DNA from: Isoetes taiwanensis
Lineage: Eukaryota > Streptophyta > Lycopodiopsida > Isoetales > Isoetaceae
NCBI GenBank assembly: GCA_021234155.1
Contig: JAJEKV010000057.1
Span: 6,541,821-6,605,820, forward strand
Length of the DNA: 64,000 nucleotides
Direction: 5' to 3'
Positions 44,152-45,858 of this stretch are shown one piece after another. Each line of letters starts with the position of its first letter. Within the stretch, counting starts at the first letter, position 1. A program made the translations under genes and the position numbers. A model generated the notes under the pieces. The model was given only the letters and a program-made list of their open reading frames with translations. It was not told the DNA's origin and searched no databases.

Positions 44152-45858
44152 ATGCCGCGCTTTAAGCTCACTGTTGACCTAAAGAAGATGAATGTGTACC
44201 AGCTTTATAGCGTACTTATAGATCATCTCGCAGACGATAGTGACATGGTCGACCTTGTGTTAGACCTTTTGGTTACCCATTTTGCTGAGAACCGTAGGAT
44301 CCCATATCCTATCTTCCATTTCTCGGAGCGGTTCCTTATGAAGTTGAATGCGGCCAATGAGTTTTATACTCTACTAGAGCAGCCTGATCAAGCCTATGCC
44401 ATCGTTAAGTTCTACCCGCTGGCGAGTCCAGATGAGGACCCCATAGAGCTTGCCCAAATAGAAGCCCAGGGGGTTATGGACCTTGCAAGGATAGAGGACC
44501 TGCAACAAATTGCCAGTGGTATCCCAGAGGAGAGGGCCGCGCGGTTCTACTACTTAGGGAGGGGCCATGTCCTCATGTACTTAGATCACTATAACCTTCC
44601 CCCTTTTTATTGGGATGGGGCTTCCAACACTTTTGTATTCGAGACTGTCCCACCTGATTTTACACAGGATCGGATGGACATTATCGAGGCCGACATGCAA
44701 GCTCGACCAGGCCGCTACCATGCTGAGATAGCACGGTGAACCCAGGTGCGCCAGGAACGTGAGGCCAGAGAAGCTGAGAGAGAGGCTATTCGTAGAGCCG
44801 AGGAGGCTGCCCAAATGGAGCAGAACGAAGTTCGGAATATAGTTCAAGAAGTGGAAGAGCGGGTGGCTAGACGCAAGAGGAAGTACACTAAGCACACGAA
44901 GGGAGGTGTCCATTACAAAACCAGGTTACAACAGGATGCCGAGATTGGGAAGAATACGGCCGCAGATCGACGTGAGAGAATAGTAGAGAAGGCCAAGCAC
45001 CCCTCAACCGCTGGTAAGACTGTACCATTGATCGCACCGCCCGCTGCCGGGAAGCCCCATAGGTTTCACTGTGCATTGTAGCGCTATGCGAAATAATAAA
45101 AATACGAAAGACTACAGAGTTCCCGATACGGCTATCTTTCCAAATGTCTTGTCCGAGAAATTACCCAAGAATTCAAGACGGACATGAGGTTCCAAGCTTT
45201 TGCCTTACTTGCTCTACAGGAGGCTGCCGAAGCCTATCTTATCGAAATTTTGGGTGATGCCAGGGATAGGTTCAATACGCTGCACGTTTTATACGGAATA
45301 CGTATGAATTGTATGATACGGCACATATTTGCCGTATAAAACGTAAAAAATACGGCAAAAAAAAAATTCCGGCGTCGGAAGATTTTCGCGACAGACGTGA
45401 AAACAACGCGGAAAGCCGTCTGTGAAATTTTTTTTCAGACGCCGGAAACAAAAAAAATCACAGATTTTTTTTTCACAGACGCTGAAAAGTTCACAGACGC
45501 TGGAATTCTTTCGATCGCGACGCAAAAATACTTTCGCGACGCTAAAGATGAAGGTTCACAGACGCCTTTTTTTTTTTTTTTTTGCGACGCTGGTTTTCAT
45601 CGCTTTCAGACGCCGAAAAACTTTTATGCGACGCCATCGGCTTTCACAGACGCTGAAATTTTTTTTTTCCGGCCGGCGAGGTTTAAATACGTTAAATACG
45701 TATTTTATTAAAAAATATGCATTTTTTGACTTTATACGTCAGGAATTTGAATTTTGTACGTACAGAACCTATCCCTGGGTGATGCGAACCTATGTGCCAT
45801 CCACGCGAAGCGGGTGACTATTATGCCCAAGGATGTTCAACTAGTTGCAGAAGATTAA
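44152..45858 (+). pseudogene. Element E extra ORF 1: novel domain - coiled coil - histone H3 fusion
   Basis: From ATG 44152 (MPRFKLTVDLKK) one frame carries: a novel N-terminal domain (to about residue 190; blocks YPIFHFSERFLMKL and GRGHVLMYLDHYNLPPFYW), a Glu/Arg-rich coiled coil (44746-44880), a basic linker, and then histone H3. H3 parts: a tail-like AGKTVPLIAPP, GKPHRF (45049; H3 KKPHRF), KCLVREITQEFKTDMRFQ (45145), LALQEAAEAYL (45208) and, after the hAT MITE, NLCAIHAKRVTIMPKD (45784), ending VQLVAED and TAA 45858. The MITE plus its duplication is 525 bp, so the frame is kept. Stops: TGA 44737, TAG 45079, TAA TAA 45094. H3 core identity is high and lacks the CENH3 loop-1 insertion, so the source was a canonical H3. 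It lies before gag, as in element D. Confidence 0.85.
45261..45777. mobile_element. hAT-type MITE, 517 bp, inside the H3 domain
   Basis: Termini CAGGGATAGGTTC and GAACCTATCCCTG are perfect inverted repeats, with the 8-bp duplication GGTGATGC on both sides (45253-45260 and 45778-45785), both typical of hAT elements. No transposase. Subterminal motifs repeat many times: tacgg/tacgt near both ends and cagacgc/gcgacgc in the middle, probable transposase binding sites. Confidence 0.95.

Follow-up and report, generated by a model that had tools for sequence, protein, structure and literature searches.

The window analysed here is a 64,000-bp stretch of the Isoetes taiwanensis genome (assembly GCA_021234155.1, contig JAJEKV010000057.1, positions 6,541,821 to 6,605,820), and contains a decayed Ty3 chromovirus, element E. 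Between its primer binding site (PBS) and gag lies an extra open reading frame (ORF), designated ORF1 (44152-45858), whose last third is histone H3. As detailed below, a group of Ty3/gypsy chromoviruses of this lycophyte has such an additional first ORF, with a captured H3 core as its C-terminal part. The features of element E, with the evidence for each, were as follows (LTR, long terminal repeat; MITE, miniature inverted-repeat transposable element; L numbers designate loci read in the genome).

39967-40682 (+): LTR of element E, 5' part; BLASTN to the LTRs of L018/L019 and L021/L065, 71-79%
43008-43413 (+): LTR of element E, 3' part, separated from the 5' part by about 2.3 kb of other sequence; BLASTN to the L019 LTR, 85%
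43415-43426 (+): PBS, presumably of initiator-Met type, TGGTATCAGAGC; exact match
44152-45858 (+): ORF1 (fusion ORF), dead copy; matched in tblastn by the ORF1 frame of L018, E 1.3e-122
44152-44736 (+): N-terminal domain of ORF1, new family; genomic matches, no significant Pfam or PDB relative
44740-45051 (+): charged, coiled-coil-like stretch (by eye only) and basic linker; BLASTN to L018, L021 and L028, tblastn with L018 ORF1
45052-45259 (+): H3 core, part 5' of the insert; hmmsearch, domain match at E 7.5e-19 over profile positions 1-72 (alignment 45052-45264)
45260-45776 (no strand): MITE-like insert, presumably of hAT type, 517 bp, with 8-bp target duplication; inverted repeats and duplication
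45777-45855 (+): H3 core, last part (alpha-3 and C-terminus); PF00125 E 3.8e-9, hmmsearch E 2.4e-10, profile positions 68-91
52952-54397 (+): ORF2, second extra ORF; tblastn with L024 ORF2, E 2.4e-89
54555-55192 (+): start of gag, then interrupted by other sequence; BLASTN to the gag of L018 and L021, tblastn match to 91 of 190 capsid positions

The ORF1-H3 fusion in element E

An initial annotation, made from the sequence without database searches, had described a novel N-terminal domain, a charged coil and histone H3 in one frame. A search of 44152-45858 with PF00125 (Pfam Histone) confirmed the H3: the ORF1 frame was matched in two separate pieces, 45103-45339 (E 1.2e-9) and 45760-45855 (E 3.8e-9). 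When all six frames of the window were scanned, a profile of the element H3 core found the region at E 1.5e-29, the best reversed translation reaching 0.029. H3 is in frame with the N-terminal part (44152-44736) and with the charged linker. Read from 44152, a 195-residue domain is followed by a stop (44737), the charged stretch and H3, which is split around the 517-bp insert. Direct repeats of 8 bp, GGGTGATG (45252-45259 and 45777-45784), border the insert, which has inverted repeats at 45260-45273 and 45765-45778, the second overlapping the target duplication by 2 bp. These positions define an insertion of 517 bp plus 8 bp. Since 525 is a multiple of three and a single frame is found on both sides, its removal restores the H3 frame, as had been proposed. 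The insert is presumably of the hAT type, and the PBS motif presumably that for the initiator-Met tRNA.

The description of the locus as a fusion reading frame held as far as all parts lie in a single frame, but the frame itself is closed by stops at 44737, 45079, 45094 and 45097, all outside the insert, and H3 is heavily decayed in its alpha-N part. Because of the four stops, the insert and further large insertions, this copy of ORF1 is regarded as dead. Its position between the PBS-like TGGTATCAGAGC at 43415 and the Ty3 gag start at 54555-55192 agreed with the initial annotation; ORF2 and the gag start lie past a large insertion. LINE-like (long interspersed nuclear element) ORFs, with endonuclease and reverse transcriptase (RT) recognised by eye, are inserted between ORF1 and ORF2 (46671-50307, minus strand). 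Directly 5' of the LTR (39967-40682) the window contains sequence resembling the element's own internal 3' end (39530-39832). The LTR may serve two elements, by LTR recombination or in tandem.

Recurrence of the H3 fusion in the genome

Copies of the element without H3 would point to a one-off insertion of a processed histone gene. Such copies were looked for in two samples from the assembly (1,658,258,908 bp, 1110 contigs) and were not found in undamaged form. For the first sample, the best 150 of 8704 first-look candidates of a genome search with Pfam Histone were scored. Fifteen of these had 164-165 bits and started at profile position 2; the eight that were read were all full H3 with a tail. 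The remaining 135 started at positions 4-25, and 49 of them, chosen mostly for long frames and not at random, were read. An H3 frame was present in all 49 and the ORF1 linker was directly shown before H3 in 48. At the remaining locus (L037), for which the linker was not displayed, the N-terminal domain was matched in a separate genome search. In 28 of the 49 loci a frame runs without a stop for at least 440 codons. On the basis of H3 and linker features the loci were divided into type A (32 loci; the type to which the window copy belongs), type B (11) and type C (6). At least three diverged subfamilies thus have the H3 fusion.

The second sample was selected by the N-terminal domain. Of 2841 first-look candidates the best 150, one of them the window copy, were scored; these matches were 61-100% identical, each with E ≤ 1.0e-79. 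Twenty loci, approximately every fifth from rank 10 to 105, were read to 1 kb past the domain. All were of type A, and two lay 7 kb apart on the same contig. H3 was present in 17 copies, covering at least 80 of its 96 positions in 16 and much decayed in L083. The three copies without H3 in this range enter the basic linker, after which other sequence cuts in. Since these copies reach the linker before being cut, no undamaged H3-less ORF1 was seen among the 20 type A copies within 1 kb of the domain. The possibility of a one-off processed H3 gene is contradicted by the fusion in 49 of 49 and 17 of 20 copies and by the ratio of nonsynonymous to synonymous substitution rates (dN/dS, see below).

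Structure of six longer loci

Six loci (L018/L019, L021/L065, L022/L066, L020/L067, L023/L068/L069 and L024) were each read for some 10 kb or more. LTRs on both sides, a feature of full copies named in the initial annotation, were found as pairs in five of the six loci with 90.2-96.3% identity in the main pieces: 92.5% in L018/L019, 90.2% in L021/L065, 93.3% in L020/L067, 96.3% in L022/L066 (plus a 302-bp piece of 90.9%) and 93.4% for L069 and L023 against L068 (plus a 250-bp piece of 96.8%). No LTR pair was present within the range read for L024. With assumed, uncalibrated substitution rates, the LTR ages are 1.4-7.5 million years. The PBS motif GGTATCAGAGC stands directly behind the LTR in L018, L020, L021 and L022, and was not found in the stretches read of L023 and L024. 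At least one other ATG lies between the PBS and that of ORF1 in each of the four loci checked.

The order ORF1-ORF2-gag-protease-pol-chromodomain was the same in all six loci. Ty3-type gag, protease, RT, RNase H and integrase were identified by Pfam in the L019 and L022 frames, and gag and pol pieces by tblastn in all six loci. The pol frames are fragmented in L020, L023 and L024, and L022 is without RT and RNase H. In this locus (6029-8173) gag-protease continues into integrase in one open frame, a frame-keeping internal deletion of RT and RNase H. The L022 gag frame, the sole scanned gag frame that reaches protease, gave just a marginal CCHC match (E 0.93). A chromodomain follows integrase in L019 (PF00385, E 2.4e-8; ALLDRAYKQTRRTQLLQYLVKWKHLPVEDATW), and the same stretch occurs in L022, L023, L024, L065 and L067, so that all six loci have one. 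When aligned to HP1, the L019 chromodomain apparently retains one of the three cage aromatics, and is therefore group-II-like.

ORF2 (about 470 residues; 5839-7299 on the minus strand in L024) lies between ORF1 and gag in all six loci. No Pfam domain or PHROG family was found for it. It is approximately 31-50% identical between types, and is nearly as diverged as the N-terminal domain of ORF1.

For the latter domain, Pfam gave nothing better than E 0.058, and the PDB, searched with an alignment of the domain, nothing better than E 0.73. A set of 919 candidate proteins, limited in length range, contained no relative at E 0.001, and two forms of the domain had no PHROG match. A protein search with whole ORF1 was dominated by proteins with ordinary H3, and the single-sequence structure model of the domain was poor (pLDDT, the predicted local distance difference test score, 40.6). 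In three ORF1s some 310-355 residues of other protein precede the H3 core in place of the tail. The N-terminal domain is acidic; the H3 part is basic (isoelectric point, pI, about 10.5-10.9), and the last 60 residues of the linker are very basic (pI about 12).

Properties and origin of the H3 core

The H3 core consists of 96 codons without insertion or deletion in 48 of 48 H3-picked copies (L037 was left out, its start motif not being found). Gaps, frameshifts or stops in H3 occur in a few of the copies picked by the N-terminal domain. PF00125 scored 125.8-147.2 bits in three ORF1 frames, in keeping with an H3 histone fold that includes alpha-N. All 48 cores keep, among others, R40, R49, K56, R69, R72, K79, R83, H113, K115, R116, T118, K122, D123, L126 and R128-G132, many of which presumably touch DNA, H4 or the second H3. 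Fixed differences from host H3 are S86 to A or T, S87 to F or H, E105 to S or G and T107 to A; positions 41, 60, 64, 89, 101, 102, 104 and 124 mostly differ. Positions 86 and 87 are taken to be those where H3 variants differ for their chaperones.

The H3 tail (K4, K9, K27) was not recognisable in any of the nine linkers tested. The motifs TGGK and PATGG, seen by eye, were considered as a tail remnant and rejected, 51 to 422 of 500 shuffles scoring equally well.

In the PDB the L018 core matched an H3.3 chain (7ux9) best, and in 11 copies compared the core was 84-90% identical to canonical host H3. This identity and the lack of indels in 48 of 48 copies speak against CENH3, which is marked by a diverged core and a changed loop 1, and this identification was rejected. 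The residues taken as marks of plant H3.3 are Y41, H87 and L90. The element cores have Y41 (22 of 48) or F41 (26), H87 (13) or F87 (35), and L90 in all cases; the eight host H3s read have Y41 and L90 as well, but S or T at position 87. In a protein tree of 43 rows one branch (100/98, the bootstrap not being fully settled) separates all 31 distinct element H3s from host and other H3s, which fits a single capture. In the 11 copies the synonymous sites are saturated relative to host H3, indicating that the capture is old, and no recent re-capture was seen. The claim of a captured host H3 thus stands in that H3 is part of the element's ORF; an origin from the H3 of Isoetes itself is only plausible, the source lineage not being fixed at this saturation.

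Comparison of L018 (type A) and L024 (type B) gave proportions of synonymous (pS) and nonsynonymous (pN) differences of 0.40-0.43 and 0.02-0.04 for pol, with an H3 pS of 0.87 and N-terminal domains that are 34-40% identical. The pol of L020 and L023, also of type B, is more distant from A. Since pol is close in the first pair yet the divergence of ORF1 is old, the 5' cassette and pol have probably been exchanged between lineages, as judged from these few loci.

Selection on ORF1

Regional dN/dS was determined for the 28 long frames (19 copies of type A, seven of type B and two of type C, the latter forming one pair). For type A the values were 0.107 for the N-terminal domain (98 of 171 pairs usable), 0.262 for the coil (126), 0.131 for the linker (146) and 0.034 for H3 (171 of 171), as compared to 0.767 (89 of 136 pairs) for the in-frame sequence before the ATG. 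Type B gave 0.124, 0.111, 0.147 and 0.015 for the same four regions and 0.794 before the ATG. For the type C pair the linker gave 0.213, H3 0.032 and the sequence before the ATG 0.597; the N-terminal domain and coil were not computable. Mean dS of the H3 comparisons was about 0.5-1.5. Picking copies by H3 score biases the H3 value downward. The effect must be small, because 16 copies picked by the N-terminal domain gave 0.046 (98 of 120 pairs usable). Constraint on pol is similar (integrase-chromodomain of L018 and L021, pN 0.028, pS 0.453). The dN/dS comparison called for by the initial annotation thus yielded 0.015-0.046, and purifying selection on the H3 core is very strong, roughly equal to that on pol.

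Role of ORF1-H3

These results strongly support that the element carries H3 inside its own ORF, and suggest that it has put a borrowed chromatin protein to its own use. The uses raised in the initial annotation, namely chromatin tethering, cDNA packing or silencing evasion, are hypothetical. The reading favoured here, at somewhat short of even chances, is that the captured H3 is still used as a histone, and that ORF1 connects the element's particle, or its pre-integration complex, with chromatin or with the traffic of histone chaperones. The ORF1 protein would fold with host H4, be treated as an H3 and become part of a nucleosome or of an (H3-H4)2-like particle. Its pairing with H4 and its entry into a nucleosome-like particle are inferred from the kept positions, which include surfaces presumably relevant there. 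The acidic N-terminal domain, in the position of the H3 tail, could hold Gag, integrase, RNA or cDNA of the element. The most likely use would be docking of the element on chromatin, and this is also the most economical one because chromoviruses already carry a chromodomain. In a bolder and more tentative form, the retrotransposon would build its own nucleosome: ORF1 would replace H3 beside host H4, would have for a tail a domain of its own of about 310-355 residues, and would mark or dock element DNA while being unable to receive H3K9 or H3K27 methylation. Such a histone would be old, would have been kept during exchange of pol and the ORF1 cassette, and would have diverged almost beyond recognition in a sister chromovirus (see below).

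Several points weigh against the favoured reading. The H3-picked copies were selected on H3 score and mostly for long frames, and the check with N-terminal-picked copies covers type A alone, where single residues, stops and small gaps vary as in decaying copies. Translation of ORF1 is not obvious, since other ATGs precede it behind the PBS in four loci. Any partner of the N-terminal domain is hypothetical, the domain having no recognised relative and a poor model. Finally, purifying selection tells that the H3 fold matters, not what it is for.

This last point leaves room for H3 as a mere structural or dimerisation fold within ORF1 with no role in chromatin, which is improbable as the kept residues go beyond the hydrophobic core and include surfaces presumed to face DNA and H4. 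Silencing evasion, in which a tail-less H3 is put on element DNA or ousts host H3 and the resulting nucleosomes are unable to carry H3K9 or H3K27 methylation, would agree with the unrecognisable K4/K9/K27 tail in nine linkers, while K56, K79, K115 and K122 are kept in all 48 cores. It is nevertheless rather unlikely: placement on element DNA is hypothetical, free ORF1 would act genome-wide, and the long N-terminal domain would be superfluous. Somewhat less likely again is a nucleocapsid-like function, with ORF1 and host H4 (and H2A-H2B) coating cDNA or genomic RNA in the particle. The basic end of the linker and the basic H3 part of three ORF1s, and the kept arginines, presumed to face DNA, would suit such packing; the marginal CCHC match in L022 gag would leave room for a further nucleic-acid binder, and viral histones that pack viral DNA exist. 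Packing alone would not obviously demand so close an identity to the H3 core.

If ORF1 instead absorbed host H3 chaperones or H4 as a decoy, loosening host chromatin and aiding transcription or integration, conservation of the H3 surfaces and the fixed changes at 86 and 87, in what is taken to be the variant-reading zone, would be accounted for. A decoy would harm the host, and is given little chance, only slightly more than the structural fold. Plant retrotransposons are known to capture genes (PMC7264820), so a processed host H3 gene might have landed in the element and hitch-hiked. Such a passenger is hardly credible in view of dN/dS values of 0.015-0.046 at a mean dS of about 0.5-1.5, the identical place of H3 in every copy and subfamily read, and the single group (100/98) apart from host H3.

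Chromatin is a target of retrotransposons and also the host's means of silencing them. Through an H3 core of its own, constrained much as that of the host, an element would have a direct grip on this system. One can now test whether mobile elements are able to write nucleosomes, or dock on them, via a histone that they encode themselves. The ORF1-H3 copies also form a natural series of tail-swapped H3s, with many diverged members, for structure-function work.

Other elements in the window

A second chromovirus, on the minus strand of the window, has LTRs at 8974-10395 and 20586-21994 (90.5% identical), gag and a chromodomain. In its ORF1 place, within the stretch 18535-18963, the H3 profile detected the following feature.

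18565-18816 (-): probable H3 relic in the ORF1 place of the second chromovirus; hmmsearch 13.5 bits, E 0.0013

This score was reached by none of 300 dinucleotide shuffles, the best of which gave 5.9. Against a relic, tblastn with six ORF1 frames yielded just E 0.007-0.55, the stretch contains two stops, Pfam found no histone in its three separate pieces, and no ORF1 N-terminal domain was found at this place. On balance 18565-18816 is probably a highly diverged, decayed H3, and suggests that H3 entered before these chromoviruses split.

Direct repeats at 59314-59616 and 63650-63951, 4335 bp apart and 90-98% identical, lie 3' of ORFs that appear copia-like by eye. They are likely to be the LTRs of a short element.

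Comparison with known systems

No published retrotransposon-encoded histone was found in a literature search of limited reach, which is no proof that none has been published. The word histone is absent from the available text of a review of extra ORFs in plant LTR elements (PMC7264820), and from the main texts of two Isoetes genome papers (one of them PMC8566536) in the form available. A screen of 121 angiosperm genomes, to which lycophytes are external, reports 15 extra domains, and no histone is among those named in its relevant section (PMC9289625).

The elements described here have an extra sense ORF of host origin, selected in many copies, and thus qualify as LTR elements with a captured host ORF. 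A close parallel is with the orchid Ty3/gypsy elements that captured an ORF for the m6A (N6-methyladenosine) demethylase AlkB: a host-derived extra domain became fixed there too in an LTR retrotransposon lineage, and demethylase activity was shown in vitro (PMC9289625). The difference is that the orchid enzyme acts on RNA whereas the domain captured here is a histone. The bdelloid rotifer LTR elements with a captured ORF3 are similar in that extra ORFs were swapped between retroelement types, as the ORF1 cassette may have been here. Their ORF3s are enzyme-like or env-like, and the main text does not contain the word histone (PMC5408684).

In their LTRs, Met-type PBS, gag, protease, RT, RNase H, integrase and C-terminal chromodomain the elements resemble other chromoviruses, that is Ty3/gypsy elements with a chromodomain on integrase, from which they differ by a pair of additional ORFs 5' of gag, the first of which has H3 at its end. 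Histones are also encoded by viruses, such as the doublets of Marseilleviridae, the histones of Medusavirus and the H4 of bracoviruses. These share with ORF1 a core histone fold encoded by a mobile or viral genome, but belong to DNA viruses and are whole or doublet histones, whereas ORF1 is one H3 core fused to a retrotransposon protein. As to host H3 and H3.3, the element core is 84-90% identical to host H3 (11 copies), but it lacks a recognisable tail, has about 310-355 other residues instead, and carries the fixed changes at positions 86, 87, 105 and 107.
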